Below are positions 17,882-41,642 of a stretch of DNA of 64,000 nt, one piece after another. This stretch comes from Emcibacter sp. (GTDB taxonomy: Bacteria > Pseudomonadota > Alphaproteobacteria > Sphingomonadales > Emcibacteraceae). The position numbers and the translations under genes are program-made. Each line of letters begins with the position of its first letter. The stretch's first letter is position 1. The DNA lies in the NCBI GenBank assembly GCA_021774785.1, contig JAJFIQ010000019.1, forward strand, positions 62,001 to 126,000. Reading direction: 5' to 3'. The notes below the pieces were generated by a model. It did not search any database. It was not told the DNA's origin and worked only from the letters and a program-made list of their open reading frames with translations.

Positions 17882-19975
17882 ATGCGACCGGAAATATTAT
17901 ATCCATTTTTTGCCGATACGATCAGCCTTCCCGGTGTGGGGGGACGGATTGCGGCTCTGCTTGAGAAAATTATTGGGCGCAGGGTGCTGGATTTATTTTG
18001 GCATTTACCAGTGGATATTATTGATCGCAGTGCAAGTCCTGCACTGGCAGACATCAAATATGATCAGACCATTACGGTACTTGTAACTGTTGATAAACAT
18101 GATGCTCCGCCCCGAAATGTACGCAGGCCATACCGGGTATGGTGTCATGACGCTACCGGTAAGATGCAGCTTATTTTCTTCCATGTGAAAGGGGATTATA
18201 TCCTGCGTCAATTGCCCGTCGGGGAAGAGCGGCTGATCAGTGGCAAGGTGGAAGTTTATAACAACCAACTTCAGATGACCCATCCCGACTATATGTTATT
18301 GCCCGATAAACGGGATGAAATTCCGGGTGTGGAGCCTGTCTATCCCTTGACCGCAGGTATTAGCGGTAAGGTCATGGCAAAAATTGTCCGGGGTGCCTTA
18401 GAAAGGCTGGTGGAGCTTCCCGAATGGCAGGATAAGCCTTTACTCAAGCGGGAAGGTTGGCCCACTTGGTTTGATGCCATGAAAATGGCGCATGAGCCAC
18501 AGGGACAAAATGATTTACAAATGAATAGCGTGGCGCGGCAACGGCTGGCCTATGATGAGTTTCTAGCCAACCAGCTGGCGCTAGAGATTATGCGACGGCA
18601 GAATCAGAAGAAAAAAGGCCGTTCTCTAAAGGCCAAAGGGCAGTTGAAGCAGAAGTTACTGGATAGTCTGCCCTATAGATTAACGGGGGCGCAGGTGCAG
18701 AGTGGGGCTGAAATAGAACAGGATTTGGCCCAGCCTTTTGCTATGATGCGACTGCTTCAGGGGGATGTGGGCAGCGGGAAGACGGTGGTCGCCCTGCTTG
18801 CAATGCTGGTGGCAGTGGAAAATGGGGCACAGGCCGCTATGATTGCCCCAACCGAAATTCTCAGCCGACAGCATTATGCCAGCTTGACCGAAATGACAGC
18901 GGGGATGGACATCAGGATTGCGATTCTCACCGGAAGGGACAAGGGTAAGGCACGGACAAAGTTGCTTGAAGATTTGCGGACGGGGGAAATTGATATTCTG
19001 GTGGGAACCCATGCCCTGTTTCAGAAAGATGTTATATATAATGATCTTAGCTTTGCAGTCATTGATGAGCAACATCGCTTTGGCGTTGAGCAGCGCATGG
19101 CATTGTCAGCCAAAGGGCGGGACGGAACATCCATGGACGTGCTCGCCATGACGGCTACACCAATTCCCCGAACCTTAACCCTTACCGCCTACGGCGATAT
19201 GGAGGTGTCACAGCTTCATGAAAAGCCACCGGGACGCAAACCTGTTGATACCAGAACCATTCCCCTGAACAGGCTTGATGAAGTGGTGCAGGGCATCCGC
19301 CGTGCCATTACGGGCGGTACCAGAGTATTCTGGATTTGCCCATTGGTAGAAGAATCCGAAGTGCTGGATTTGGCAGCTGCCGAAGAAAGATTTTGTCATC
19401 TTGAACAGATTTTCGGGCAAAAAGTAGGCTTGGTTCATGGCAAGATGAAGTCTAAGGAAAAAGATGCTGTGATGGACCGTTTCATAAATGGGGATATAGA
19501 TATTCTGGTGGCGACAACGGTGGTAGAAGTGGGGGTTGATGTGCCGGAGGCAACCATTATGGTAATCGAGCATGCAGAAAGATTTGGTCTGTCTCAGTTG
19601 CATCAGTTGCGTGGTCGGGTTGGCCGTGGAATGGATCAGTCAACCTGTCTGTTATTATTTGGTAATTTACGGGGGGAGACCGCGAAGGCCCGCCTGAAAA
19701 TCATGCGGGAAACCGATGATGGTTTTCTGATTGCTGAAGAAGATCTGCGGCTGCGCGGGGCCGGTGAATTACTGGGCACACGCCAAAGTGGCATGCCGAT
19801 TTTCAAGGTGGCCAGCCTTGAGGAACACGGTGCTTTGATTGCCATGGCGCGGGATGATGCGCGTCTGATCCTCGGCCAAGACCCTGATCTGAAAAGCGAA
19901 AGGGGCGAGGCGCTCAGAATTTTGCTTTATCTGTTCGAGCGGGACGAAGGCGTACGATACTTAACGTCAGGCTGA
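17882..19975 (+). CDS. recG: ATP-dependent DNA helicase RecG
   Basis: A branch-migration helicase that regresses stalled forks. The 697 residues start with the wedge/OB region (LPGVGGRIAALLEK), followed by an SF2 helicase: Walker A GDVGSGKTVVAL, DEQH box (FAVIDEQHRFG), motif [12 protein letters not shown], and the C-terminal QLRGRVGRG and RLRGAGELLGTRQSG motifs shared with Mfd. Its last 9 bases overlap the convergent DUF502 gene. Confidence 0.98.
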   Translation: MRPEILYPFFADTISLPGVGGRIAALLEKIIGRRVLDLFWHLPVDIIDRSASPALADIKYDQTITVLVTVDKHDAPPRNVRRPYRVWCHDATGKMQLIFFHVKGDYILRQLPVGEERLISGKVEVYNNQLQMTHPDYMLLPDKRDEIPGVEPVYPLTAGISGKVMAKIVRGALERLVELPEWQDKPLLKREGWPTWFDAMKMAHEPQGQNDLQMNSVARQRLAYDEFLANQLALEIMRRQNQKKKGRSLKAKGQLKQKLLDSLPYRLTGAQVQSGAEIEQDLAQPFAMMRLLQGDVGSGKTVVALLAMLVAVENGAQAAMIAPTEILSRQHYASLTEMTAGMDIRIAILTGRDKGKARTKLLEDLRTGEIDILVGTHALFQKDVIYNDLSFAVIDEQHRFGVEQRMALSAKGRDGTSMDVLAMTATPIPRTLTLTAYGDMEVSQLHEKPPGRKPVDTRTIPLNRLDEVVQGIRRAITGGTRVFWICPLVEESEVLDLAAAEERFCHLEQIFGQKVGLVHGKMKSKEKDAVMDRFINGDIDILVATTVVEVGVDVPEATIMVIEHAERFGLSQLHQLRGRVGRGMDQSTCLLLFGNLRGETAKARLKIMRETDDGFLIAEEDLRLRGAGELLGTRQSGMPIFKVASLEEHGALIAMARDDARLILGQDPDLKSERGEALRILLYLFERDEGVRYLTSG

Positions 19976-20635
19976 ATTTTCTTTTTTAACCGGAAGATTG
20001 CTCGGGTCCACCAGTCCGGCGGAAATCACATATTTCGCGCCTTCATCGGGGGTCATATCTAGTCGGATAATATCTTTCTTGGGTACGAATAACAAAAATC
20101 CTGATGTGGGATTTGGTGTCGTTGGCAGGAAGATATTAACAACTTCGTCTTTCATTTTTGCCTGTATTTCACCGGTGTTTTCCCCTGATATAAAAGCGAT
20201 GGCCCATAGCCCTTTGCGGGGGTATTCGATTAATACCACTTCCTGAAAACTTCTTTTCTCATCGGATATAACGGTCTCGAAAATTTGTTTCAGCGTATTA
20301 TAAACACTTCTGATTATGGGCATACGGTTCAGAATTCTCTCACCAATCCGGATCAGTGTTTTACCCAGATAATTGGCCGCAAAAAACCCAAGAACGGTCA
20401 GCATCAAGAACAGGAAGACCAGCCCAATACCTGGCAAAGGAAACGGCAGGTAGGTTTCCGGGTTATAGATTTCCGGAATTAAAGGTTTGATATTCCGGTC
20501 TATGAGGTTAATGAATGCCAGCGCCAGATAGATGGTGATGCCCACAGGAGATGCAACGACAAGTCCGGTTAAAAAATAGGTTTTCATCCTTTGAAAAAAG
20601 GACTTTTCCGGCTTTGTTTTTTGTTTATCAGGCAT
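19967..20635 (-). CDS. DUF502 inner-membrane protein
   Basis: 222 residues with two membrane segments near the N-terminus (FLTGLVVASPVGITIYLALAF at about 15-35, then LVFLFLMLTVLGFFAANY) and a conserved soluble domain with PIIRSVYNTLKQIFETV and TPNPTSGFLLFVP. The family is widespread but has no firm biochemical role. It is convergent with recG and lies 73 bp downstream of the ceramide synthase candidate in the same direction, so it may be the last gene of the lptF-lptG-synthase unit. A role in lipid trafficking is inference. Confidence 0.9.
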   Translation of the reverse strand: MPDKQKTKPEKSFFQRMKTYFLTGLVVASPVGITIYLALAFINLIDRNIKPLIPEIYNPETYLPFPLPGIGLVFLFLMLTVLGFFAANYLGKTLIRIGERILNRMPIIRSVYNTLKQIFETVISDEKRSFQEVVLIEYPRKGLWAIAFISGENTGEIQAKMKDEVVNIFLPTTPNPTSGFLLFVPKKDIIRLDMTPDEGAKYVISAGLVDPSNLPVKKENSA

Positions 20636-20708: not shown

Positions 20709-21854
20709 TTATAATGTTTTGCTATACATACGATAATTTTTATACCGCCAGCAACCAATGGTTTCCAGCATTTTTGACAAACGTGTATTTTCTTCCAGAA
20801 CCCAGGACAATTCCGCATGGGTGCATCCTGCCTTTTCAGCTTGAATTCGGCATTCTTCGATCAGTGCAAAGGCCATAGCCCCGCCAACGGCTGTATTCTG
20901 AAATTCTTTCCGAACCCCCATCAAGGGTACGCGGGTTGTTTTATATCTGGGCCTGATTTTCAGTCGCCATAACAGTTTGAAAATACCAAAGGGAAATAAA
21001 CGCCCGTCCAGATCAGCTATCACTTCATTCAGGTTGGGTAGCGTCACCATCATGGCCATGGGAATCCCATCATATTCGGCAATATAGGTGAAATCTTCCC
21101 GGATGAGTAGTTTCATGTCCTTCACGGCTTTATTAAGTTCCTTTTCAGTAAAGGGCAGGGCCATCCAGTTGCCAGACCAGGCATCGTTAAAAATATCGAG
21201 GATGGTTCTCAGATCTTCTTCGAAATTCTTCATGTTGATTTTGCGTAGTCTGATTTTTCCGTCCCGCATACTGCGCGTGATCAGTTTATTAATGGTGGGG
21301 GGCAGGACTTCTTCATCAATTTTAAGGTAATATGCCCATAAGTCCTTGATCTTCTCCATGCCATATCCGCACATCAAATCCTGATAATAGGGTAGGGCGT
21401 GGTTCATCATTAGGCTGGGTGGTGTATCGAACCCCTCTACTAGCATTCCGGCTTCTTCATTAATGGACAGGCTGAAGGGGCCGATCATACTGGTGCGGCC
21501 TTGCTCTTTTAACCAGCTACAGGCAGTATCCATAAGGACTGTTGCCACTTCTTGATCATTGATGCATTCGAAAAATCCGAAATGGCCTACCTTCTCATGA
21601 TGATTTTGTTCCACAAGGTCATCAACCTGCGCAGTAATCCGGCCAACAATCTCCTCGTCTTTGATGGCGAGCCATAGTTTTGCCCGAGCATGTTCAAAAT
21701 AAGGGTTGTTCTTTTGGTCAAGAACTTCCAGCCGTTCCATAATCAGGGGCGCAACCCAGTTGGGGTCATCTTTATACAGACGCCAAGGCATTTTTACGAA
21801 CTGCTTCAGGTCTTGACTGCTTGTCACTTCTTTGATGGTGATTGTTGATGCCAC
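20709..21854 (-). CDS. GNAT-fold N-acyltransferase, candidate bacterial ceramide synthase (bCerS/YghO family)
   Basis: 381 residues from the GTG at 21854, which has AAGGG upstream; the frame stays open further but that adds an unnatural N-terminus. The sequence shows MPWRLYKDDPNWVAPL near the N-terminus, GPFSLSINEEAGMLVEGFDTPP in the middle and a C-terminal GNAT-like fold. Proteins of this family are often mis-annotated as dATP pyrophosphohydrolase. In Caulobacter the homologous GNAT-family enzyme acylates 3-ketosphinganine. It follows lptG by 20 bp, and spt, acp, cerR and aasR lie a few kb away, which supports a ceramide synthase role. Specificity for the acyl donor is unknown. Confidence 0.8.
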   Translation of the reverse strand: MASTITIKEVTSSQDLKQFVKMPWRLYKDDPNWVAPLIMERLEVLDQKNNPYFEHARAKLWLAIKDEEIVGRITAQVDDLVEQNHHEKVGHFGFFECINDQEVATVLMDTACSWLKEQGRTSMIGPFSLSINEEAGMLVEGFDTPPSLMMNHALPYYQDLMCGYGMEKIKDLWAYYLKIDEEVLPPTINKLITRSMRDGKIRLRKINMKNFEEDLRTILDIFNDAWSGNWMALPFTEKELNKAVKDMKLLIREDFTYIAEYDGIPMAMMVTLPNLNEVIADLDGRLFPFGIFKLLWRLKIRPRYKTTRVPLMGVRKEFQNTAVGGAMAFALIEECRIQAEKAGCTHAELSWVLEENTRLSKMLETIGCWRYKNYRMYSKTL

Positions 21855-21874
21855 AATATTTCCCTTATTATTTT

Positions 21875-23002
21875 TTATTCTTCGGTGAGCAGGATGAAAC
21901 TTATTCCGGTGAGGAAAAACAGTAAAAATGGTAACCATGCCGCAATGACCGGTGGCACCGCTCCATATTGACCCAGTGCGATAAAAAGATTGTTGATGAC
22001 AAAATAGCCAAATCCCATGGCACCAGTAAGGGCAATTCGTCCAAACAGGCCGCCACCCCGGTGCAGACCGAAAGCCGCAAGCCCCGCAAGCAGCGGCATA
22101 AGCAAAGTGCTTAAGGGTGAGACAAACTTTTGATACAACATAGTTTCAAAACTTGCTGTATTATGACCTTCCTTTTCCAGCTGTGCGATTGCAGTTCGTA
22201 ACCGCTGAAGATTAACCTGATCCGGCTTCAGGGCCAGTGCTATGAAACGTTCCGGTGGAATGTCTGTATCCCATACCAGATTTTCCATGGGGGTAACTTT
22301 CAGCGTGCGAATGTCAAATTCCCGGACCTCAAACATGGTCCATTTACCATCACGGTATACGGCGAAATCAGCCTTGATCAGGGAGGTAATGCGTTGGTCT
22401 TTGTCGCGGATATATTGAGTGACCTTATCTAGAAGCAGGATGCTGCCATTGCGGTTGGCGCTTTCCGCCTTGATAAGATTATTGCCGTCATTAACCCACG
22501 TGTCATAAACTGTATCCGGTGCGGGTGGCAGGTCAGCGGCATATTTATTTTCTTTCCAGTTCCTCAGCTCCGCTTTGGCATCTACAGTGACGGTTTCTGT
22601 AAAAACAAAATGAAGACATGCAATCAGAAAAGACATCATGATCATGGGCATAATAATTCTGAAAGCAGACCATCCTGCCGCTTTCATGATGACAATCTCG
22701 CTATGGACATTCAGACCCGCCAGACACATGATTGCCGCCAACAGGGTTACAAAGGGGGAAAAGAGCGATAACAAAGTCGGTGTCCGCAGGGTCACATAAT
22801 GCCATAGATCGGAATAAACTGCCCCTTCGCCAGCCAGAATATTGTCGGATTCTGATAAAAGATCAAGCATTTGCAAGGTTGCTACAAGTCCGACCAATAT
22901 CATTACATACCGGGTGGCAAAAAGTTTGGCTAAATAAATATCCAAACTTCCCGGATCAAGTAAACCGCCTAAGTGGCTGGAAAATTTGATGAATCTTTCC
23001 AT
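21875..23002 (-). CDS. lptG: LptG-family lipid export permease
   Basis: 375 residues of the YjgP/YjgQ family: three N-terminal membrane helices, a periplasmic beta-jellyroll and three C-terminal helices. In the Lpt machine LptF and LptG form the membrane part of the ABC transporter LptB2FG, which extracts LPS from the inner membrane. The ATG at 23002 follows the lptF stop by 1 bp. Downstream, 20 bp away, is the ceramide synthase candidate. No lptD, the usual alphaproteobacterial neighbour, is present. The pair may therefore serve sphingolipid rather than LPS, although being the only LptFG of the cell cannot be excluded from this window. Confidence 0.9.
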   Translation of the reverse strand: MERFIKFSSHLGGLLDPGSLDIYLAKLFATRYVMILVGLVATLQMLDLLSESDNILAGEGAVYSDLWHYVTLRTPTLLSLFSPFVTLLAAIMCLAGLNVHSEIVIMKAAGWSAFRIIMPMIMMSFLIACLHFVFTETVTVDAKAELRNWKENKYAADLPPAPDTVYDTWVNDGNNLIKAESANRNGSILLLDKVTQYIRDKDQRITSLIKADFAVYRDGKWTMFEVREFDIRTLKVTPMENLVWDTDIPPERFIALALKPDQVNLQRLRTAIAQLEKEGHNTASFETMLYQKFVSPLSTLLMPLLAGLAAFGLHRGGGLFGRIALTGAMGFGYFVINNLFIALGQYGAVPPVIAAWLPFLLFFLTGISFILLTEE

Positions 23003-23003
23003 A

Positions 23004-24179
23004 TTAATTGGCCGCCCTTAATCGTTTTATCATACGGAGTACGGCATCCACAATCACTTCATAGATAATTTCAACCCGTCTGAGAGGCATGCCACCCACT
23101 TTGAAGGCCCCAATATAATAAAGTCTGGCTGTGAGCAGGATAAGCAGCAATGTGGGAAACCATATTACTAACCAGGGTGATATATCACCTGTGGCGGAAA
23201 ACCCGAGACCAAACTCCAGAATTTTGTGATAGATCAGCAAAATGACAACCCCCACCGTGATCCCGAGAGCCTTGCCAGATCTTTTGGCAACCAGCCCCAA
23301 CGGAATCGCCAGAAACGGGACAATTAATATGGACAGGGCGCGTGCAGTTCGGGAATGAATCATGGCTATTATAGCGGGATCATCGCTGTCCTGCGCTTGC
23401 CATAGTTCTATGATAGTCATTTCCTTGGCTTCTTCACCCCGATCCCGGAAAGTGGCAAAATTTGGTACAGCCAGCGGCAGGTCATGCAGGTCAAAATTTA
23501 CGATACTAGGACGACTCTGGGTAATATCCAGATCAATGAGTGTGCCATCATAGAGCCTGAGAATCATAAAACGTTTGTCGGGCGATATGAAAAAATTGCC
23601 TTTCTTCGCACTGATGGATTGAATTCGGCCATCTTCAGATTCTTTTTGAGCGAAAATATCGATGAGTTCTCGCCCACCATCTCTTGATTCTTCGATTCTG
23701 AGGGTCAGGCCGTCGCCAAGGTCGGTATATTCACCGGCCTTGATGCTTGCGCCCAGTGCACCGCTGCGAATGTCAAAAACCAATCCCTGATAAGTATAGC
23801 GGCTATAGGGCTGGACAAAACCTACCACGATGACATTGACGATAAGTAATATAATCGCCACGTAGAAACAAGGTACTACAAGGCGGTTCAGACTCATCCC
23901 CGCGGCGGTCAAAGCATCCAGTTCACTGTTAATGGCGAGCTTGCGCACAGCAAACAACACGCCCAGAAACATGGATAGTGGCAACACCAATGTCAGATAT
24001 TGCGGCATGAGATTGCCCAGCATGCGCCAGACAATGTCAATGGGACCGCCCTGATTGATAACAAAATCAAAAAGGCTGAGCATTTTTTCAAGCAACAACA
24101 ATAAAGCCGATATGCCTAAAGTAAGAAGAAGGGGTAAAATTGTTTCCCGTAATATATATTTATCAATTTTTTTCAGCAT
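23004..24179 (-). CDS. lptF: LptF-family lipid export permease
   Basis: 391 residues of the LptF/LptG family, beginning MLKKIDKYILRETILPLLL. Helices: three before residue 125, then a periplasmic domain with IDIFAQKES, then three in the C-terminal 130 residues (SILIVPFLAIPLGLVAKR). It is the partner of the adjacent lptG (1-bp gap). It is first gene of a likely four-gene unit with lptG, the acyltransferase and DUF502. Divergent from the kinase-like gene at 24393, so the promoter should lie in 24180-24392. Confidence 0.9.
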   Translation of the reverse strand: MLKKIDKYILRETILPLLLTLGISALLLLLEKMLSLFDFVINQGGPIDIVWRMLGNLMPQYLTLVLPLSMFLGVLFAVRKLAINSELDALTAAGMSLNRLVVPCFYVAIILLIVNVIVVGFVQPYSRYTYQGLVFDIRSGALGASIKAGEYTDLGDGLTLRIEESRDGGRELIDIFAQKESEDGRIQSISAKKGNFFISPDKRFMILRLYDGTLIDLDITQSRPSIVNFDLHDLPLAVPNFATFRDRGEEAKEMTIIELWQAQDSDDPAIIAMIHSRTARALSILIVPFLAIPLGLVAKRSGKALGITVGVVILLIYHKILEFGLGFSATGDISPWLVIWFPTLLLILLTARLYYIGAFKVGGMPLRRVEIIYEVIVDAVLRMIKRLRAAN

Positions 24180-24392
24180 TAAGTCGCTTTTAATCGCTTT
24201 TGATCTGGATTTAGCCTGATTTCACGCTTATAGCATTTAGGGTGCAGACTTATAAATATTTTTTTGCCTAATGACCCGATTTTGTGGTTTTTATAAGACC
24301 AAGAATAAAAGAGTTAATATAATACAGTGGAAGTGTAATTGGGAATTATTGCCATATTAAGTAGTCCGTCCTCCTTTAAAGGAAATAAAGAG

Positions 24393-25301
24393 ATGGAAAA
24401 GATCCGTGCCGTTATTGCGGGAGGCACGGCTATATTTCATTATGAAGTGGAAAAACACAAAGACATAGCCGAAGCCCTCATGCGATTTCAGCAGGCCGAA
24501 GTTGATGCCATCGTAATTATTGGGGATAGAGCGCTGACCTCCGCCATCTTTGAACATATTATAGAGAAAAATATATTTAAAGGTGTGGATATTCCATTGG
24601 CTATTTTGCCAGCGGGGGACAATAATATTGTTGCTGAAAACCTTGGTGCCACCCGATCAGAACCTCATATGGCATTAAAGGTGCTTTTAAGGGATCACCA
24701 GAAGGGCAACCTTCTGAACAGGGTAACTGATTACCCACTAATAAAGCTGGAAGGGGTTAGAGGAGTTAATTATCTTTATGGGCTTTTCTTTTGTGCCGGG
24801 GATATTATTAAACGAAAGAGAATATTCAAAGGAAATATTTCCAGAAAAGGCTTTTTTTACGCTTTACGGAACTGGTTTAATATTATGCGTTTGATACAAA
24901 ACGCTTATTTCGTTGCCATGGGAAAATCCAGCCTTGAAGATCCTATCCGAATAAACCGCAATCAGCGTGGTGCTGTGATGGGTAATTTTTTTATGGTGTT
25001 GATCACCACATTGGATAAGGCATTCTGGGATGTGTCAATTGGACAAGAAAGAAGAAAGGATAGGGCACATTTCGTCAGCGTTGAGAATACAGCAAAAGCC
25101 GTTGTAAAAACCGGGAAACTTATGCTGCGGGGTAATTATGACGGGATCGACCATGTGGGTAATATTATTGCCGAAATTCAACATGCCAGAGTTGTTTTGC
25201 AAACCCCATTCGTACTGGATGGCAGCTATTATGAGGCCGATGAAACAGGCGAATTATTCATTAGTATTACTGATTGTCTGAAATTTATCCGTTTAAGCTA
25301 A
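24393..25301 (+). CDS. DAG/sphingoid-kinase-fold protein, ceramide-kinase-like, with degenerate nucleotide motif
   Basis: 302 residues from ATG 24393, set by AAAGGA about 10 nt upstream. The lipid-kinase fold of the LCB5/DgkB family is recognisable: PLAILPAGDNNIVAENLG matches the PLGILPLGTGNDFA segment, and VLDGSYYEADETGEL matches the C-terminal DGE region. But the ATP-binding GGDGT signature reads IGDRALT (residues 43-49). Caulobacter encodes a ceramide kinase of this family (CpgB) in its sphingolipid locus. Here the gene converges on spt (9-bp overlap). It could be a divergent ceramide kinase or a catalytically dead relative. Confidence 0.7.
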   Translation: MEKIRAVIAGGTAIFHYEVEKHKDIAEALMRFQQAEVDAIVIIGDRALTSAIFEHIIEKNIFKGVDIPLAILPAGDNNIVAENLGATRSEPHMALKVLLRDHQKGNLLNRVTDYPLIKLEGVRGVNYLYGLFFCAGDIIKRKRIFKGNISRKGFFYALRNWFNIMRLIQNAYFVAMGKSSLEDPIRINRNQRGAVMGNFFMVLITTLDKAFWDVSIGQERRKDRAHFVSVENTAKAVVKTGKLMLRGNYDGIDHVGNIIAEIQHARVVLQTPFVLDGSYYEADETGELFISITDCLKFIRLS

Positions 25302-26522
25302 TGCACTTTCGGATATTTCTTCCAAGAGTCCTAATCTTTTGCCTACCAGTTCAAATTTTTCTAGCATAAAGTCTATTTGCTCGAAAGTATGGGCCGCAGA
25401 TAAGCTACAGCGCATCAAATTCAATCGGTTTGGTGTGGCGGGTGGCAGGGCCAGATTAACATATACGCCTTCTTTGATCATTTCACCCCAAAAAGCTATT
25501 GCAGTATTCTGGTCATCAACGATGATGGCGGCAATGGGGCTTTCACCCGTCGTTCCCATTTCAAAACCCACACGACTTAGGCCCCTGTTCAGCCGCATGG
25601 AATTGCCCAAAAGCTTGCTACGAAGATTTGTATTGGCAATTAATTCTAATGCTTTGGTGGCGGAAGCTACGACGGATGGCGGCAAGGAAGCCGTAAACAT
25701 ATAAGGCCGACAAACAAGGCGTAATGCTTCGAATTTTGGTTCGTTGGAGACGCAGTATCCTCCGATAGTACCAACACTTTTACTGAAAGTGCCGATGATA
25801 AAGTCCACCTGATCTTCTACACCCTGTTCCTGAGCGACGCCACGACCGGTTTCACCAAAAACCCCTATGGAATGGGCTTCATCCACGAGGACGTAGGCAT
25901 TGTGGTCTTTTGAAATTTTTGTCAGTTCTTTTAGCGGAGCCTGATCACCAAGCATGCTATATACCCCTTCCAGAACAACAAGTATTCCGGCTTTCGGATC
26001 ATCTCTGCGGATACGGGCCAGTCTTTTATCAAGATTTTCTGGATTGTTATGCTTAAAGCGGACAACGGTGGCATTACCCATGGCACAACCATCATAAATG
26101 CTGGCATGGCTGTCGGCATCAATTACCACATAGTCTTTCGGGCCGGCAAGCGTTGCAATGATGCCGAGATTAGCCTGATAACCGGTGGAAAATACGATAG
26201 CATGTTTTGTGCCATAGAATTCTTTCAGGGTTTCTTCTAAACGTTTATGGCTGTTATAGGTTCCGTTCAGCATCCGTGACCCTGTGGTGCCGGTGCCAAG
26301 CGCGGTCAAAGCTTCCTGTGCGGCTTCCATACATTCTGCATTGAAGGTCATGCCCATGTAATTATTGGTGCCGGCAAGTACGGTTTCCCGTCCATTAATG
26401 ATGGCTGTGGTGGGGGACAGTACCTTTTCCATGCTGACGGTGAAGGGATTGGCTTCTCCGTTTGGCAGGCTATTATACTCATTAAGAATCGGGTTAAATT
26501 TTTCAAATAGATCAAGGGTCAT
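25293..26522 (-). CDS. spt: serine palmitoyltransferase
   Basis: A PLP enzyme of the alpha-oxoamine synthase family that condenses serine with an acyl thioester to give 3-ketosphinganine. The 409 residues have the PLP Lys K248 in GTFSKSVGTIGG, the cofactor Asp D214 in VDEAHSIG, the ring-stacking H139 in DADSHAS, and the FSTGYQANLG segment. Linkage to a dedicated ACP (11 bp) and to an NAD-dependent reductase and acyl-ACP synthetase separates it from AONS/KBL-type relatives and matches the Caulobacter spt cluster. Soluble, probably membrane-associated during catalysis. Confidence 0.93.
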   Translation of the reverse strand: MTLDLFEKFNPILNEYNSLPNGEANPFTVSMEKVLSPTTAIINGRETVLAGTNNYMGMTFNAECMEAAQEALTALGTGTTGSRMLNGTYNSHKRLEETLKEFYGTKHAIVFSTGYQANLGIIATLAGPKDYVVIDADSHASIYDGCAMGNATVVRFKHNNPENLDKRLARIRRDDPKAGILVVLEGVYSMLGDQAPLKELTKISKDHNAYVLVDEAHSIGVFGETGRGVAQEQGVEDQVDFIIGTFSKSVGTIGGYCVSNEPKFEALRLVCRPYMFTASLPPSVVASATKALELIANTNLRSKLLGNSMRLNRGLSRVGFEMGTTGESPIAAIIVDDQNTAIAFWGEMIKEGVYVNLALPPATPNRLNLMRCSLSAAHTFEQIDFMLEKFELVGKRLGLLEEISESALA

Positions 26523-26533
26523 TATTCGTCCCG

Positions 26534-26785
26534 TTATTTATTGGCAAGTAATTTTTGTACAGCATCGGTGAATTGGCCAACTGTTTCCAGATCCGGAAGT
26601 ATGTTGAGAGGAACTGTAATATCAAATTCGTCTTCAATTTCAGATAAAAGATCCATAACGGTCAGGGAATCAAGTTCCAGATCAACACTGAATATAGTGT
26701 CTTTACTTATGGTGACATTCTTTTTGTTAAAGGGTTTAATGAGCTCACATATTTGGTCAAAAATTTCATCAACAGTTAGGGTCAT
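26534..26785 (-). CDS. dedicated acyl carrier protein of the sphingolipid locus
   Basis: 83 residues from the ATG at 26785, which has GGAAGA upstream; earlier in-frame starts lack one. The phosphopantetheine Ser is S40 in LELDSLTVMDLL. The protein is acidic and helical like all ACPs. It lies between cerR and spt, 11 bp before spt, so it very likely presents the acyl chain made by the adjacent acyl-ACP synthetase. The primary fatty-acid acpP is not in the window. Confidence 0.93.
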   Translation of the reverse strand: MTLTVDEIFDQICELIKPFNKKNVTISKDTIFSVDLELDSLTVMDLLSEIEDEFDITVPLNILPDLETVGQFTDAVQKLLANK

Positions 26786-26842: not shown

Positions 26843-27778
26843 TTATAATAAGTTATTTTTTTTATACCATTTCAGAGTTTTTTTAAACCCTTGTTTCAGG
26901 TCTGTTTTTGGACGCCATTCTGTCAATCTCATAACATGTGGTCCGCGACATATCCAGTCCGGGTAACATAATTCATTAACTTTTTCCGGCGTGACCATGG
27001 GGGTATAGCCGAATAATGTCGAAAATAAGACATTAAAATGGGCCGCAATATTTAAAAAAAACTTTGGTATAACGATTTGAAAAGGCTTGATATTTAGTAT
27101 TTCCGCAGCCGTATCATACATTTCCTGGTTGGAATAACCGTCTGTTGTGCCATCATCAACATCAAGTATCTGTCCAAAACAGTCCTTATTTTCACATACG
27201 GCAATCATGGCTTGTACTAAATCCGGTGCATATATCCAGGATGCTCTATTGTTTGAATTGCCGGGCAGGGGAGCAAATCGGGCAGAAATAGCCTTGAATA
27301 TTTTCAGGGTTTCCCTGTCTTCCGGTCCATATATTCCGGGTGGGCGCAGTATAGTCCATGGCAAGTCAACAGCATTTTCAATAAGGTTTTCTTCACCCCG
27401 CCGTTTGCTTTGTGCATAGTTAGATAAATTTCTCTCCCGTGCGGCTAGGGAGGATAACAGAATGAAATGTGGCTGGCTGGGGGATTTCGCAAGAATCTCA
27501 ATGAGCGTATTAACGCTCTGGCTGTTGACGCGGTTGAAACCTTCTGCTGTTTTGGCTTTGATTAGGCCCGCCAGGTGAAAAATCACATCCGTATTTTCCA
27601 CAAGCTGGCTTAGGGCATGGAGGTTATCGAGGTCACCTTCTACCCATTCTATATTGGGTATCTCTGGTTGGGGGCGGCGGGTCAGGGCTTTAACCTTAAA
27701 ACCCTGCGTGACCAGTTCACGGATCAGGTGTTTGCCGACAAATCCGGTAGCTCCGGTGACTGCTGCTGTTTTTGACAC
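26843..27778 (-). CDS. cerR: NAD-dependent epimerase-fold reductase, ceramide reductase CerR
   Basis: 311 residues of the extended short-chain dehydrogenase family: GATGFVG at 9-15, and Y121/K125 of the catalytic YxxxK (SNYAQSKRRGE). The start is GTG at 27778. In Caulobacter the equivalent enzyme reduces the 3-keto group after N-acylation, giving dihydroceramide. Its place between the acyl-ACP synthetase (6 bp upstream) and the ACP supports this. Generic sugar epimerase is the alternative from sequence alone, but the neighbours make that unlikely. Confidence 0.87.
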   Translation of the reverse strand: MSKTAAVTGATGFVGKHLIRELVTQGFKVKALTRRPQPEIPNIEWVEGDLDNLHALSQLVENTDVIFHLAGLIKAKTAEGFNRVNSQSVNTLIEILAKSPSQPHFILLSSLAARERNLSNYAQSKRRGEENLIENAVDLPWTILRPPGIYGPEDRETLKIFKAISARFAPLPGNSNNRASWIYAPDLVQAMIAVCENKDCFGQILDVDDGTTDGYSNQEMYDTAAEILNIKPFQIVIPKFFLNIAAHFNVLFSTLFGYTPMVTPEKVNELCYPDWICRGPHVMRLTEWRPKTDLKQGFKKTLKWYKKNNLL

Positions 27779-27784
27779 GAGGGC

Positions 27785-29530
27785 TTAAACCGCAAGGTCA
27801 CCGGCAAGATATTGTTTTCTTGCCTTGACCCGGCTTAATTTACCAGAGGATGTTCGTGGTAAAGAGCGTGGCGGGATTAAAGCAACAACCGGGGAAATTC
27901 CCAGCATGGAATGAACAGTATCCTTGATTCTGTTTTCCATATTGGCCCGTTCTTCTGCATCACGGGTACGGCATTGTACCAGAATGGCGGGAACTTCTTC
28001 TTCTTGATTGCCGGGGATTGAAACTGCTGCCGTATCGCCACTTCGCAGGTCATCCAATTGCTCAACGGCCCATTCAATATCTTGCGGCCAGTGGTTTTTG
28101 CCGTTGATAATGATCAGGTCTTTAAAACGGCCAATAATATAGAGGGAGCCTTCTTTCATATATCCCATATCACCAGTATCGAGCCATTTGTCTTCGGACA
28201 AACAATTATTGGTGGCTTCCTGATCCTGATAATATCCGACCATGACACTGGTTCCCCGCAGGCAAACCCGGCCAATATGATATTCGCCAAGATCAACATT
28301 GTTGTCATCACGGATTTCTATCTCATATTCAGACAGGGGGATACCACAATTTACGACGCTGCGATAATTGGTGCCGTTGCCGTTGCCGTTAATTTTAATT
28401 TTTTCCAGACGTTTTTCTTCGCCGGATAATACTTTTTCATTCACAAGGTCAATTTCAAAACCTGTATCCCTTTTGGCGAAGCTAACCCCAAGGGTGCATT
28501 CCGCAAGGCCATAGTTGGGCAGGAATGTGGTGCTTTTAAAACCAACTTCCTTGAAAATTTCCTGAAAATGAGTCAGCACATCAGCTCTGATCATATCTCC
28601 GCCGATGCTGGCAACCCGCCAACTGGACAGGTCAAGATCAGCAATCTTGTTTGGGCTTGCCCGGCGGGCGCAGATATCATAGCCGAAAGTAGGGCCGCCG
28701 GATAATGTTGCTTTGTTTTTGGAAATAAGCTTCAACCATTGCAGGGGTCGACGGGCAAAAGATTCTGTCGCCAGATAGTCTGTAGTAATTTGATTTGCGA
28801 TCGGCATAAGCAAAGCACCAACCAGACCCATATCATGATAAAATGGCAACCAGGATACAACCCGGTCATCTTCGTTAAGGTCCATACCTTCTTTGCCAAT
28901 ACCGCGACAGTTTGCCAGAAGTGATTTATGGGTTACGGCAACGCCGTGAGGGAAGCGGGTGCTTCCAGAAGAATATTGAAGATAGGCCAGATTTTCCGAC
29001 TGTGCTTCGGGGAGTACAATTTTTTTAATATCCTTCAGGTAAGCCTGCGCTTCAAATGTAGTGGATGTGCCAACAAATTTCATTTTCAGCCCTGATGTAG
29101 CTTCATCAAGTAGAGGCAGCATATAAGATGCCGAAATAGCCACAGATGCGCCACAGCTTTTCATGAGTTGATTAAGCTGACTGGTATATCCTTCGCGTCC
29201 ACCGAATGAGGTGGGCAGGGGCAAGGGAACAGGCAAGAGGCCAGCATACAGGCACCCAATAAAATAACAGACAAAGTCTTCATTTGTTTCTGCTATTAAG
29301 GCAACACGGGAGCCTTTTTTGATGCCAAAATGGACGAAACGTCGCCCAATTTGCTGTGCTTTTTTGCAAATTTCAGAATAGGTGATGCTGGTATCAAGGT
29401 CGCCGCGAGGGGAATAGAAATTCAGACCCCGGGTACCTTTAGCCGCATATTCGATTGCTTCCAAAATGGTGCTAAAGTCAGCAATCCTACGCGGAAGGGT
29501 CGGGTCTTGTGTTGGAATTGGTTCACGCAT
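27785..29530 (-). CDS. aasR: fatty acyl-AMP ligase / acyl-ACP synthetase of the sphingolipid locus
   Basis: 581 residues of the adenylate-forming superfamily, closest in layout to fatty acyl-AMP ligases. The P-loop is LQYSSGSTRFPHG, then SWLPFYHDMGLVG, NYGLAECTLG, the hinge region DTGDMGYM, and the C-terminal Lys in PRTSSGKLSR. It would activate a fatty acid and load it on the nearby ACP for Spt or the ceramide synthase. It is the first gene of the aasR-cerR-acp-spt operon. No strong promoter is visible in the 192 bp upstream. Confidence 0.88.
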   Translation of the reverse strand: MREPIPTQDPTLPRRIADFSTILEAIEYAAKGTRGLNFYSPRGDLDTSITYSEICKKAQQIGRRFVHFGIKKGSRVALIAETNEDFVCYFIGCLYAGLLPVPLPLPTSFGGREGYTSQLNQLMKSCGASVAISASYMLPLLDEATSGLKMKFVGTSTTFEAQAYLKDIKKIVLPEAQSENLAYLQYSSGSTRFPHGVAVTHKSLLANCRGIGKEGMDLNEDDRVVSWLPFYHDMGLVGALLMPIANQITTDYLATESFARRPLQWLKLISKNKATLSGGPTFGYDICARRASPNKIADLDLSSWRVASIGGDMIRADVLTHFQEIFKEVGFKSTTFLPNYGLAECTLGVSFAKRDTGFEIDLVNEKVLSGEEKRLEKIKINGNGNGTNYRSVVNCGIPLSEYEIEIRDDNNVDLGEYHIGRVCLRGTSVMVGYYQDQEATNNCLSEDKWLDTGDMGYMKEGSLYIIGRFKDLIIINGKNHWPQDIEWAVEQLDDLRSGDTAAVSIPGNQEEEVPAILVQCRTRDAEERANMENRIKDTVHSMLGISPVVALIPPRSLPRTSSGKLSRVKARKQYLAGDLAV

Positions 29531-29722: not shown

Positions 29723-30640
29723 CTATTTCTTGTTTGTTGGTGTTGACTTAGGCATTTTTTTTCTTTTTTCTGCCAGATATATCCCGGCTAATATGAAAGA
29801 AACGGAGACCATATAAGTCGCTTTTAAGGGCTCATCCAGCCAGATATACCCGGCTGTCATGCCCACAAGCGGAATCAAATAAGTATTATATGAAACGAAA
29901 GTTGCACCGGCCAGATGGGTCAGATGAAATAATATCAGGGATGCAATCCCCGTTGCAAAAATACCGAGAACCAATATGGAATAGATTGCCGGTGTCGTTG
30001 GGGTGAGTGTCCATGGCTCCTCAAATATCAGAGCGAGGGGAATAGTGACCAGCGTTGCGATGATCAGCATGGCAGATGCCGTGCTAAGGGGATCTTTATT
30101 TTTAAGTTTTTTGACCAGCACTCCGGCAAAAGCATAGAAAAATGATGTTATCACCAACCCAAATAACGCCAGAAACATTGTTGGCGAGCTGTCCACTTCG
30201 GTCATTGTTCCGTAAAACAGACTGGCCACGCCGAGAACACCGAATATTATACCAACCAGTTTATTGGAACTGAATTTTTCATCATGGGTCATAAAATGAG
30301 CTAATGTCATGGTAAATAGGGGGGCTAGAGACATGCAGATAGCGGCCAGAGAGCTATGTACATATTGTATGCTCCAATTTACCAGAAAGAAAGGAACCAC
30401 ACTGCTGGTGATGCCTATGACGGCACAGAGGAGCCACTGGGAAGGCTCGCGGGGTAAACGGACACCCATTTTTAGGGCAATAACAGTGATAACAATAGCC
30501 CCAATACCAATGCGACTGGCCGCTATGGTTAGCGGTGTTATGCTATCCAGAGATATTTTGACAAACATGAAAGCGCTGCCCCAGAAGAAAGCAAGAAGGA
30601 TCAGGAAAATAAAATGGCTGGGGGCTCTGTTATCGGTCAT
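29723..30640 (-). CDS. EamA-family (DMT) transporter
   Basis: 305 residues with ten predicted membrane helices in two EamA repeats, the first starting FIFLILLAFFWGSAFMFVK and the second near TMFLALFGLVITSFFYAFAG. The basic tail is KRKKMPKSTPTNKK. The superfamily exports amino acids, metabolites or nucleotide sugars. It is divergent from recX and 192 bp downstream of the sphingolipid operon's start, with no sequence reason to link it to that pathway. Substrate unknown. Confidence 0.88.
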   Translation of the reverse strand: MTDNRAPSHFIFLILLAFFWGSAFMFVKISLDSITPLTIAASRIGIGAIVITVIALKMGVRLPREPSQWLLCAVIGITSSVVPFFLVNWSIQYVHSSLAAICMSLAPLFTMTLAHFMTHDEKFSSNKLVGIIFGVLGVASLFYGTMTEVDSSPTMFLALFGLVITSFFYAFAGVLVKKLKNKDPLSTASAMLIIATLVTIPLALIFEEPWTLTPTTPAIYSILVLGIFATGIASLILFHLTHLAGATFVSYNTYLIPLVGMTAGYIWLDEPLKATYMVSVSFILAGIYLAEKRKKMPKSTPTNKK

Positions 30641-30663: not shown

Positions 30664-31245
30664 ATGAATAAAGGAAAATCAAAAAAACATGCTCGAAAAT
30701 CCACTCTGACACGGGATTATCTGATCAGAGCAACCTATAACTACCTGCAAAGATTTGCAACCACGGAAAAAAACCTTGGCCGTGTTCTGGATCGAAAAGT
30801 CAGACGGCGTTTGCCGGATACTGATTGTGATGCGTTATATGATCAAGCAAAGGACTGGATTGAAGATATCGTTCACAAAGCGGTGCAGCAAAATCTTGTT
30901 AATGACCGACAGTTTGCCCATGCGCGGGCGGCATCCCTGATTCGTAGCGGCAATTCAAAAATGAAAATTATCCAGAAACTACAGGCCAAAGGTGTCACCC
31001 CTGATGTTATTGCGGATGTTATGCAGAATTTATCGGACCAACATGAGGATATGGATTTTTTAGCCGCTGTGAAATATGCTCGAAAAAGGAGATTCGGTGC
31101 TTTCAGTATTCGCCATAACGGAAAGGACATCGTGGAAAAAGAGCGGGCCAGTATGTGCCGGGCCGGTTTTTCCTATAGCTTGGCGGGTAGAGTTTTAAAT
31201 ATGCCCCATGACGCTATGGAAGACATACTCTATAGCAAGGATTAA
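30664..31245 (+). CDS. recX: RecX-family regulatory protein
   Basis: About 193 residues from ATG 30664 (an in-frame GTG at 30643 is possible; neither has a clear ribosome-binding site). All-helical with tandem three-helix repeats: LTRDYLIRATYNYLQRF, then LVNDRQFAHARAASLIRSGNS and the RRFGAF segment near the C-terminus. RecX modulates RecA filaments. No recA is adjacent. Its stop is 1 bp before the start of the next gene, so they may be co-transcribed. Confidence 0.82.
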   Translation: MNKGKSKKHARKSTLTRDYLIRATYNYLQRFATTEKNLGRVLDRKVRRRLPDTDCDALYDQAKDWIEDIVHKAVQQNLVNDRQFAHARAASLIRSGNSKMKIIQKLQAKGVTPDVIADVMQNLSDQHEDMDFLAAVKYARKRRFGAFSIRHNGKDIVEKERASMCRAGFSYSLAGRVLNMPHDAMEDILYSKD

Positions 31246-31246
31246 A

Positions 31247-32443
31247 ATGACTGAAAAAACGCCTAAACGGGAAAATTATTTCGATTATACTCGAGAGATT
31301 GATGACCTGACCGGTATTGAGGTTCTTGATACATTTGAGAAATTCAGTCAGCGAGACGATGTTTTTTGCCGAGCCCTGTGGGACGAAGAGGTTTCCGGTG
31401 AGAAAGTCATGGCTTTTTACAAGGGTTATTATATGCCCAGAGCCAAAGCCCGAAAATCCGATGGTTTCAGCCAGCGTGACTATGCGCTTCGGAACGCCGC
31501 ATGGCATGTCTGCAACGTACTGCGGGAGCAGAAGGATGGTCGCAGGGAAGGTTTTCACGATCATTTTACATCCCATGATGATGGCTGGCATGAGCCATAC
31601 CCTTTCGAATCTGCGGAACAGGCAACGGTTGATATTCGCAAAGTAGCCGCCTTTTCCGGCGCTGATCTGGTGGGTATATGTGCCTATGATGAGCGGTGGA
31701 TGTATGATGGTATTTATGACACCAAAGGCAAATCCAAACCGCTTGATATTCCCGACGATCTGCCTAATGTGATTGTTACAGGTGAGTCGATGGATAAGGA
31801 TTTGACAGCCACAGTACCCTCTGCTTTGGCAGGCTCTGCCACGGGTATGGGATATACCAACGACTGTGTAACCTTGTTGACCATGGCACAATATATTCGC
31901 AATTTGGGTTACCGAGCCTATGCCACCATGAATGATAGTGCGCTTGCTGTACCGCTCGCCGTGCAGGCAGGACTTGGTGAAGGCGGGCGCCATAGCTTGT
32001 TAATCACACCGGAATTTGGTGCGCGCCTGAGGCTCGGTAAAATTTTCACAGATATGCCACTGGTTCATGATAAACCCATGAGCTTTGGGGTTAAGGAATT
32101 CTGCGATATCTGTAACCGTTGCGCCAAGGGCTGCCCGCCAAAAGCTATCAGCTTTGATGCGCCGTCCGACCATATGTACAACCGTTCTAACCTGAAGGGT
32201 GTTGTAAAATGGTCCACAGATGCGGAGAAATGCTTTAAATTCTGGATTAATCAGAATACGGATTGTTCCATTTGTATCCGTGTATGCCCCTATAACAGGG
32301 ATTATAGCAAATGGTATAACCGGGCATGGCAAAAGCTTGCTGGCGGGTCTTTTCGGAAAATAGCCCTGTGGCTGGATGATAAACTTGCCCATCGGGCACG
32401 CATGAAATCCGCTGACTGGTGGCAAAAGAAAAACATTGACTAG
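31247..32443 (+). CDS. reductive-dehalogenase/QueG-like iron-sulfur protein
   Basis: 398 residues from ATG 31247 with AAGGA upstream. The C-terminal half has two ferredoxin-type clusters: CDICNRCAKGCPPKA and, about 40 residues on, a second set ending CSICIRVCPYNRD. The middle matches the cobalamin-binding region shared by reductive dehalogenases and epoxyqueuosine reductase. There is no Tat signal, membrane anchor gene (rdhB) or cobalamin gene nearby. The protein is thus cytoplasmic and probably not respiratory. It could be a catabolic dehalogenase or an uncharacterised corrinoid enzyme. The follow-on MFS carrier (54 bp) may bring its substrate. Confidence 0.72.
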   Translation: MTEKTPKRENYFDYTREIDDLTGIEVLDTFEKFSQRDDVFCRALWDEEVSGEKVMAFYKGYYMPRAKARKSDGFSQRDYALRNAAWHVCNVLREQKDGRREGFHDHFTSHDDGWHEPYPFESAEQATVDIRKVAAFSGADLVGICAYDERWMYDGIYDTKGKSKPLDIPDDLPNVIVTGESMDKDLTATVPSALAGSATGMGYTNDCVTLLTMAQYIRNLGYRAYATMNDSALAVPLAVQAGLGEGGRHSLLITPEFGARLRLGKIFTDMPLVHDKPMSFGVKEFCDICNRCAKGCPPKAISFDAPSDHMYNRSNLKGVVKWSTDAEKCFKFWINQNTDCSICIRVCPYNRDYSKWYNRAWQKLAGGSFRKIALWLDDKLAHRARMKSADWWQKKNID

Positions 32444-39654: not shown

Positions 39655-40557
39655 TTATTTATGATCCGCTATGGTCTGGTAAATGGTGCTCAAAAATGCG
39701 TTTGGGTTTAGAAATCCGTCACCCCATTCTTCATTCAGATATTTTAAAGGATCGCGCTTTGTTGCTTCTTCCAGCGATAGCCCTTTTTTAGTCAGCGGGG
39801 TAATTGTCTCTACAACCCGAACCAACATATCATGAAAATTCTGCAGGTCCTGTTTGTTCGCTAATGGCCCGTGTCCCGGTATAATTTTAGTATTATCATC
39901 CACTTGTGTCAGCAGTGAGGCAGCAACCTCTATCATGCCGTATATTGACCCACCTGAGCTGGTATCGATGAAGGGATAAAAGCCATTGAAGAAAATATCG
40001 CCGGTGTGGATAATATTTTTATCCTTGAAAATAATGATGCTGTCGCCATCCGTATGGGCGTTCTTCACGTGATATGCTTTAATATGAAGGCCATTCATGT
40101 GAAATGTCACCTGATCGTTGAAAGATACTACGGGCAGACCGTCTTTTGGTGTGGCGGGGACTGCTTTTTTAAAGGCTACAATGAACTGGTCGGTGCTGAG
40201 CCTTTTATAGACATTGTCATGAGCCACAATGACCACGCCCTTTTTGCCAAGATTTTCATTGCCGCCGGTATGGTCATAATGCCAATGGGTATTGATCATA
40301 AATTTAATCGGCTTATCGGAAATTTTTGAGATGGCGCTAAGAATTTTGGGTGTCAGCGGGCTGAACTGATCATCAATCATGAACACACCATCGTCTCCTG
40401 TGGAAATGCCAATATTACCCCCCGCCCCCTGAAGCATATAAATGCCTTCACCAACGGGAATAGTCTTGATTTCCACTTTGTCATATTGGTTTTGTCCATA
40501 TGATAAAGTCGTCAGGGCCATGAAAAGTGATAAAAATATAGAAATAATACGAACCAT
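39655..40557 (-). CDS. periplasmic metallo-beta-lactamase-fold hydrolase, copy 1
   Basis: 300 residues from the ATG at 40557, which has AGAGG upstream and gives a clean signal peptide (cleavage near SYG-QNQ). The Zn-binding motif HWHYDHTGG (HxHxDH), AHTDGDS, HTGDIFFNG and IPGHGP show an active binuclear metallo-hydrolase of the glyoxalase II/quinoprotein-relay type. It is closely similar over its full length to the next gene upstream. Substrate unknown; beta-lactam resistance should not be assumed. Confidence 0.85.
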   Translation of the reverse strand: MVRIISIFLSLFMALTTLSYGQNQYDKVEIKTIPVGEGIYMLQGAGGNIGISTGDDGVFMIDDQFSPLTPKILSAISKISDKPIKFMINTHWHYDHTGGNENLGKKGVVIVAHDNVYKRLSTDQFIVAFKKAVPATPKDGLPVVSFNDQVTFHMNGLHIKAYHVKNAHTDGDSIIIFKDKNIIHTGDIFFNGFYPFIDTSSGGSIYGMIEVAASLLTQVDDNTKIIPGHGPLANKQDLQNFHDMLVRVVETITPLTKKGLSLEEATKRDPLKYLNEEWGDGFLNPNAFLSTIYQTIADHK

Positions 40558-40659
40558 GTTTTTTCCTCTGGATGTTATATTTCGGGATAGTAGCATAAGA
40601 ATCCGGTGATTGCTTCATTTTCCAAATTGAATGATGCAGAAGCGAATATTAAATGGGTT

Positions 40660-41565
40660 TTACTTATTATGTTCAACGATCATTTGGTAAATAACCCCCA
40701 GATAAAATTCAGCATCAAAATGTCCATTGTCCCATTTTTTATTCAGGTCTTTTAACGGGTTCTTTTTAGTAACATCTTCTAAAGAAAGATCATTTTTAAC
40801 CAGTGGGGTGATGATTTTAACTGACCGTACCAGCATATCGTGAAAGTCCTGCAAATCCTGTTTGCTTGCCAGAGGGCCGTGCCCTGGAATGATTTTTGTT
40901 TTATCATCAACCAGCTTCAGGAGTACGGCAGTGGTCTCAATCATACCGTAAATGGATCCGCCAGCCGTGTGATCGATGAAGGGATAAAACCCATTAAAGA
41001 AAAGGTCACCCGTGTGGATAATATTCCTATCTTTGAAAATAATGATGCTGTCGCCATCCGTATGGGCATGGGCGTAGTGACGGGCCTGAATATGAAGGCC
41101 GTTCAGATGAAATGTTGCCGCGTCATTGAAAGATATAACGGGCAGGGCGACCTTGGGGTAAGCGGGTGATTCCCGATTTAACGCTTTGGTGAACTGGTCG
41201 GTGCTGAGTCTTTCATATACATTGTCATGGGCGACGATGATTACGCCTTTTTTGCCAAGGTTTTCGTTGCCCTGAGTATGGTCTTTATGCCAATGGGTGT
41301 TGATCAGAAACTTGACGGGTTTATCGGAGATTTTGGCAATGGCATCAAGAATTTTCGGCGTGAGCGGACTATATTGGTCGTCAATCATGAAAACACCGTC
41401 CTCACCGGCTGAAATGCCAATATTTCCACCGGAACCCTGAAGCATATATATGCCGTCGCCAAGGGGGGTGGTTTTGATTTCAACTTTTGCAAACTGGTCC
41501 TGACCATATGATAAAACTGTTAGGCTCATAAAAAGTGGCAGGCATAAAGTAATAAGACGGTGCAT
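40660..41565 (-). CDS. periplasmic metallo-beta-lactamase-fold hydrolase, copy 2
   Basis: 301 residues from the ATG at 41565 (AAGGAG upstream), with a signal peptide ending near SYG-QDQ. The metal ligands are all present: HWHKDHTQG, AHTDGDS, HTGDLFFNG and IPGHGP. It is a tandem duplicate of the copy at 39655-40557. Even the upstream DNA is shared: about 30 bp containing ATCCGGTGATTG precede both genes, so the promoter was duplicated as well. The two differ mainly in the C-terminal 40 residues and the GxENLGKKG surroundings. Confidence 0.85.
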   Translation of the reverse strand: MHRLITLCLPLFMSLTVLSYGQDQFAKVEIKTTPLGDGIYMLQGSGGNIGISAGEDGVFMIDDQYSPLTPKILDAIAKISDKPVKFLINTHWHKDHTQGNENLGKKGVIIVAHDNVYERLSTDQFTKALNRESPAYPKVALPVISFNDAATFHLNGLHIQARHYAHAHTDGDSIIIFKDRNIIHTGDLFFNGFYPFIDHTAGGSIYGMIETTAVLLKLVDDKTKIIPGHGPLASKQDLQDFHDMLVRSVKIITPLVKNDLSLEDVTKKNPLKDLNKKWDNGHFDAEFYLGVIYQMIVEHNK

Positions 41566-41642
41566 AAATTCTCCTTCATTAAAATATTGCAGGATTGTAG
41601 TATAATGATCCGGTGATTGTCTCATCACATTTTTGGCATTTA

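Follow-up and report, generated by a model that had tools for sequence, protein, structure and literature searches.

A sole LptFG pair among ceramide genes of an apparently lipopolysaccharide-less Emcibacter: a likely sphingolipid exporter

What does an LptFG pair carry when it lies among genes for ceramide synthesis? The question is raised by a 64,000-nucleotide stretch of an Emcibacter sp. (Alphaproteobacteria, Sphingomonadales; assembly GCA_021774785.1, contig JAJFIQ010000019.1, positions 62,001 to 126,000 of the forward strand), referred to below as the window, in which lptF, lptG and the gene of a candidate ceramide synthase stand in a row at 20709-24179. The parts of the two papers used here state that the route of bacterial sphingolipids to the outer membrane is unknown (PMC11324152, PMC11087976) and that no sphingolipid flippase or transporter has been identified yet (PMC11087976). 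For Caulobacter crescentus, the relevant passage of PMC11324152 places LptC2, LptF2 and LptG2 (CC_1168, CC_1156 and CC_1155) in the sphingolipid region and proposes, as a point not investigated, that they transport sphingolipids; the idea is thus already in print for LptF2 and LptG2 of that organism. We think it likely that the window's LptFG pair, working with LptB, LptC, LptA and LptD encoded elsewhere in the genome, is an Lpt-type transenvelope exporter of a ceramide-based sphingolipid.

The unit consists of three minus-strand genes. The sphingolipid-type (LptF2-like) permease subunit LptF (23004..24179, 391 aa) scored 251 bits with NCBIfam TIGR04407 (cut-off 230), and the sphingolipid-type (LptG2-like) subunit LptG (21875..23002, 375 aa) scored 282 bits with TIGR04408 (cut-off 240); their permease domains matched PF03739 at 241 and 217 bits. 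One base pair separates the lptF stop from the lptG ATG. The third gene (20709..21854, 381 aa) encodes a GNAT-type acyltransferase, a candidate bacterial ceramide synthase (bCerS/CerS); this name, like CerR, AcpR and AasR below, was assigned by family and position after the nomenclature in the parts of PMC11324152 and PMC11087976 used here. The acyltransferase frame as listed (21938..20709) overlaps lptG, and a GTG at 21854, preceded by AAGGG and lying 20 bp past the lptG stop, was taken as its start. The frames and this start bear out the sequence-only reading's three-gene unit and its spacings of 1 and 20 bp, and we infer that the genes are co-transcribed. The arrangement recurs. Of the named loci, which are the top 80 among 206 related loci retained, 79 have lptF; in 64 of these the acyltransferase follows lptG at a distance of up to 4 kb, some loci being cut by contig ends. 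A chance neighbourhood of lptFG and acyltransferase was ruled out by this conservation, in the 79 named loci and in the genomes of the class. The best matches were titled Emcibacter, Emcibacteraceae or Alphaproteobacteria, followed by Kordiimonas, Sphingopyxis, Sphingomonas and others. The locus is also carried by records titled Candidatus Kuenenia (L181) and Rhizobium (L205), which are perhaps mislabelled or mixed metagenome bins.

If the pair served lipopolysaccharide (LPS), genes for LPS synthesis should accompany it. A PF03739 search of 118 genomes, Emcibacter and 117 relatives, gave matches in 109, exactly two in 94 and none in 9; in Emcibacter it matched only the window's LptF and LptG, making this the only LptFG pair found. 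Searches for LpxC, LptD and the acyltransferase covered 71 of the 118, picked by hand, with the least complete genomes and also some complete ones omitted. LpxC was above the cut-off in none of the 71 genomes of the order, Emcibacter included (one, G072, gave a match below it), and LpxB was matched in none of 22, again including Emcibacter; the E. coli and Caulobacter controls were detected in both searches. By gene content, therefore, Emcibacter does not make LPS, and its genome appears to belong to an LPS-less organism. The sequence-only reading had named an only pair in an LPS-making genome as the case that would speak against it: the pair is indeed the only one found, in a genome where LpxC and LpxB were not. 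Meanwhile, LptD was found in 71 of 71 genomes of the order and an acyltransferase relative in 70. All the Lpt partners, LptB, LptC, LptA and LptD, are present in Emcibacter, with one LptC and one LptD match; lptC-lptA-lptB-rpoN form one cluster and lptD-surA-pdxA-ksgA another. Its LptA scored 70.3 bits, just below the NCBIfam cut-off of 71.7 and above the Pfam cut-off. With no LPS-type pair left in the genome, the Lpt bridge must serve something other than LPS. The LptC search matched 67 of 77 genomes, seven of the ten misses have LptFG, and most genomes with two LptFG pairs showed no second LptC; the search is thus insensitive and was not used to judge gain or loss.

The place where an LPS-type pair would be expected is also empty. 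In 31 LPS-type loci, a class assigned by gene neighbours rather than by sequence, pepA lies beside lptFG in 23, lptD in 23, both in 15, and at least one in all 31; ceramide genes were found in none of these stretches. In E. coli, too, pepA precedes lptF. In Emcibacter pepA and lptD stand side by side in divergent orientation, separated by about 104 bp and without an intervening lptFG. Of 20 further LpxC-less genomes, 16 show the same junction of pepA and lptD without lptFG (9/9 in the order and 7/11 outside it), and in the remaining four pepA was not recognised next to lptD.

The phylogeny that the sequence-only reading had asked for, against LPS-type LptFG, came out in its favour. The window's pair adjoins ceramide genes and groups with sphingolipid-linked pairs, including those of LpxC-positive genomes, apart from the LPS-type pairs sampled. 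In careful trees of LptF (77 rows) and LptG (79 rows), 54 sphingolipid-linked (S-type) rows split from 23 and 25 LPS-linked (LPS-type) rows, respectively, with support of 100/100. Besides the window, the 54 rows comprise 20 pairs from the order and 19 from LpxC-less genomes of other families; the remaining 14 are sphingolipid-linked and come from LpxC-positive genomes. In wider trees with E. coli and loci of other classes (21 of 30 used), 25 of the 54 S-type rows, chosen by hand together with 15 LPS-type rows, fell on one side of a branch supported at 100/99, for LptF and LptG alike. Two other origins of the pair were weighed against these trees. Relocation of an LPS-type pair into the ceramide locus was ruled out by the LptF and LptG trees. 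The window's LptG scores 110 bits against LptG of solved gammaproteobacterial exporters and 30-80 bits against alphaproteobacterial LPS-type LptG, which suggested kinship with the gammaproteobacterial LPS exporters; the wider trees keep the S-type clade apart from them. Rows shorter than 280 aa were excluded from the careful trees, as were L058, L059, L063, L068, L069, L070, L080, L081, L082, L083, L086, L096, L098, L099 and L101, which are long branches, fragments, or single or unlinked genes. In quick trees of 89 rows each, LPS-linked LptF rows grouped with L058, L081, L096 and L099 at 88 in the Shimodaira-Hasegawa-like approximate likelihood ratio test, below the star threshold, and the LPS-linked label required two changes for LptG. 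L059 and L080 are nearest S-type rows, and the position of L058, on a very long branch, is uncertain. In a joint tree of LptF and LptG, the E. coli, LPS-type and S-type rows meet at an unresolved fork that gives no root or order of age. LpxC state changes four times on the S-type trees, a rough guide, as S-type loci may move between lineages. Together with the missing LpxC and LpxB, the S-type placement supports the dedicated sphingolipid extractor first proposed from the sequence; what did not stand is the picture of an extra extractor beside an LPS system.

Copy number was compared across the class. An acyltransferase relative was found in 46 of 289 genomes of the class, and 55 genomes were then tested, namely the 41 outside the order that were positive and 14 that were negative; G169, with a partial 32% match, was scored as acyltransferase-negative. 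Genomes with both acyltransferase and LpxC had four or five LptF/LptG matches in 17 of 19 cases and two in the others (G144, G180). Among the 21 that have the acyltransferase and lack LpxC, two matches were found in 19 and none in the other two (G171, G349); with LpxC and no acyltransferase, 13 of 14 had two and one had four; the single genome with neither had no match. The number of LptFG genes follows the LPS plus sphingolipid gene content (Fisher p = 1.9e-9, kinship ignored). Position agrees: outside the order, 19 acyltransferase-positive genomes without LpxC have LptFG, and in 18 of them no more than 5.1 kb separates the pair from the acyltransferase; in the other the distance is 24 kb. 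Among the 19 LpxC-positive acyltransferase genomes the distance is at most 7 kb in ten, 14 kb in one and more than 450 kb in three, and five have no pair on the same contig.

The possibility must be weighed that the bridge carries another surface glycolipid that replaces LPS, the ceramide linkage being an inherited neighbourhood without function. The cargo is here a prediction from genes, and linkage to the acyltransferase is loose in some genomes (24 kb in G276; more than 450 kb in G137, G247 and G327). Of these loosely linked pairs, however, two, L061 (G137) and L062 (G247), have serine palmitoyltransferase (SPT) nearby, and clade, copy number and position go with the acyltransferase across many families. 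We consider this explanation improbable.

A second alternative is that the pair and LptB act as an inner-membrane extractor or flippase of ceramide intermediates, without an LptA-LptD bridge. LptFG and LptD are separable, as five genomes of one family in the order (G039, G050, G059, G063, G067) have LptD and no LptFG match, three of them (G059, G063, G067) being under 80% complete. On the other hand, of the 21 acyltransferase-positive genomes without LpxC, 19 have LptD, and the two that do not (G171, G349) are the same two that lack LptFG. Further, lptD-surA-pdxA-ksgA lies upstream of sphingolipid-type lptFG, 13 to 556 bp away, in three of the 80 named loci (L199, L206, L207). An inner-membrane role without the bridge is quite unlikely. 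G171 and G349 (loci L102, L103) have SPT and acyltransferase, with no LptFG, LptD or LpxC match.

Residues gave some further indication. The coupling-helix Glu (E84/E88 positions) is kept in all rows, so coupling to LptB is probably retained. In Shigella flexneri, LptG K40 touches a lipid A phosphate, according to the portion of PMC6744409 consulted. E. coli has Lys at this position. Of 29 alphaproteobacterial LPS-type rows, 26 have Arg there; among the 54 S-type rows a basic residue, Lys, occurs in 1, with Asp in 23, Gly in 10, Ser in 5, Glu in 4, Ala in 4 and others in the rest. At LptF position 30, all 54 S-type rows carry Lys or Arg, and 22 of the 27 LPS-type rows carry Gln.

A number of observations weigh against a sphingolipid exporter. 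The five genomes with LptD and no LptFG match are among them, and in the two examined, G039 and G050 (L105, L104), acyltransferase and SPT are present in ceramide loci without lptFG, so export through LptFG is not general. Both acyltransferase and LpxC occur in G144 and G180, yet their LptF/LptG are only of the LPS type, assigned by neighbours in G180 and by nearest tree rows in G144. At L106:6305-9752 in G144, SPT and acyltransferase lie beside what by eye is another ATP-binding-cassette exporter-like set. In G322 an atypical second pair, L058, whose place in the tree is unsure, lies beside CerR- and ligase-like genes. The residue evidence is weakened by LptG position K34, which is Asp in S-type and LPS-type rows alike, and by E. 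coli growth being unaffected by K40E/K41E, as given in the section of PMC5548808 used; the charge of LptG is consequently only a hint of cargo. The support comes from gene content and sequence. Finally, the NCBIfam models name the pair LPS exporters, above cut-off, and LpxB tracks LpxC imperfectly: LpxB was not matched in two of the 33 genomes with LpxC (G138, G306), and was matched in two LpxC-less genomes outside the order (G163, G345). An ordinary LPS exporter whose LpxC and LpxB were missed or replaced would be favoured by these last points, with LpxB and LpxC disagreeing in 4 of 77 genomes outside the order, by the full length of LptF and LptG and by the presence of the Lpt partners. Within the order, however, LpxC was above the cut-off in 0/71 and LpxB was matched in 0/22 with working controls; this result, the LptF and LptG trees and the lptFG-free pepA-lptD slot make an LPS exporter very improbable.

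From the observed gene content, linkage, phylogeny and lptFG-free slot we infer the cargo, the flippase and the direction of the preferred sphingolipid export as follows. SPT, the acyltransferase and the CerR-like enzyme would make ceramide at the inner membrane, and this may be modified by a kinase or another enzyme. The lipid may be turned to the outer leaflet by a flippase, perhaps the EamA protein described below or a PF01943 protein in relatives; LptB2FG would then extract it and push it along LptC-LptA-LptD to the outer membrane. With loss of LPS synthesis and of the LPS-type lptFG, the bridge would have been taken over, not duplicated. In LPS-less bacteria of this kind, the whole Lpt bridge probably serves sphingolipids, with exceptions. 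More generally, we lean somewhat towards the view that LptFG is an exchangeable cargo module, S-type pairs running on the same LptB, LptC, LptA and LptD. A lineage with both types could then dispense with lipid A and its LPS-type lptFG. This would often bring pepA and lptD side by side, and the entire bridge, up to and including LptD, would now work on sphingolipids; such a change would have happened more than once in Alphaproteobacteria.

Among known systems, the Caulobacter region is the closest in description. In the account taken from PMC11324152, the locus numbers of LptF2 and LptG2 adjoin that of the ceramide gene CC_1154, and spt, acpR, cerR and aasR belong to the same region; the comparison with CC_1155 and CC_1156 is by published description and position. 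Caulobacter makes LPS and its LptF2/LptG2 are second copies beside an LPS pair, whereas the Emcibacter pair is the only one found, with no LPS genes found. Sphingomonas wittichii and Zymomonas mobilis have orthologs of most of the Caulobacter region, including the potential transport genes, but scattered over the genome, as stated in the same part of PMC11324152, and Sphingomonas naturally lacks lipid A according to the part of PMC10964400 used. The E. coli LptB2FGC-LptA-LptDE system is of the same family with the same parts and the coupling Glu, and chains of solved LPS exporters matched the window's LptF and LptG at best with 87.5 and 110.5 bits. Emcibacter differs from it in the separate clade, in LpxC and LpxB not being found, in the loss of the basic residue 40 of LptG and in the position outside the pepA-lptD slot. 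In titles and abstracts of the open-licence papers searched we found no report of LPS-less genomes keeping only a sphingolipid-type pair. An apparently LPS-less organism with its sole LptFG in the sphingolipid-linked clade offers a direct test of the transport question, free of interference by LPS; an answer would help explain natural LPS loss and show what decides LptFG cargo.

The surrounding genes fit a ceramide pathway. On the minus strand lie SPT (25293..26522; NF047599, 619 bits, cut-off 500), a putative AcpR-like acyl carrier protein between CerR and SPT (26534..26785, its start picked by eye inside a 98-aa frame; the frame at the same place in L105 matches PF00550), an NAD-dependent epimerase family protein (26843..27778, PF01370), named a CerR-like ceramide reductase candidate by position, and a fatty acyl-AMP ligase (27785..29530; NF006624, 772 bits, cut-off 600), AasR-like by position. 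A diacylglycerol-kinase-like gene, a possible ceramide kinase, is divergent from lptF on the plus strand (24339..25301; PF00781, 26.2 bits, cut-off 23.6), and in 71 of the 79 named loci with lptF a relative lies upstream of that gene; neither the product of the kinase-like gene nor the acyltransferase had a sequence match among solved structures. Two membrane proteins on the minus strand flank the set: an EamA-family protein that may be an inner-membrane lipid flippase (29723..30640, PF00892; relatives in 15 of 80 named loci) and, behind the acyltransferase, a DUF502 protein (19967..20635, PF04367; relatives in 19 of 80). Of the 80 named loci, 28 hold a relative of a PF01943 flippase-type protein; in 27 it immediately follows lptG, and in 25 it precedes the acyltransferase. 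It stands between lptG and the ceramide synthase candidate in L010, L012, L015, L028, L107, L167 and L175, for example, and was not found between these genes in the window. Elsewhere in the window, the protein of 31208-32443 scores 179 bits with NCBIfam TIGR02486, a reductive dehalogenase family (cut-off 160), and at 39655-41628 two neighbouring minus-strand frames with similar starts are apparently a tandem duplicate.

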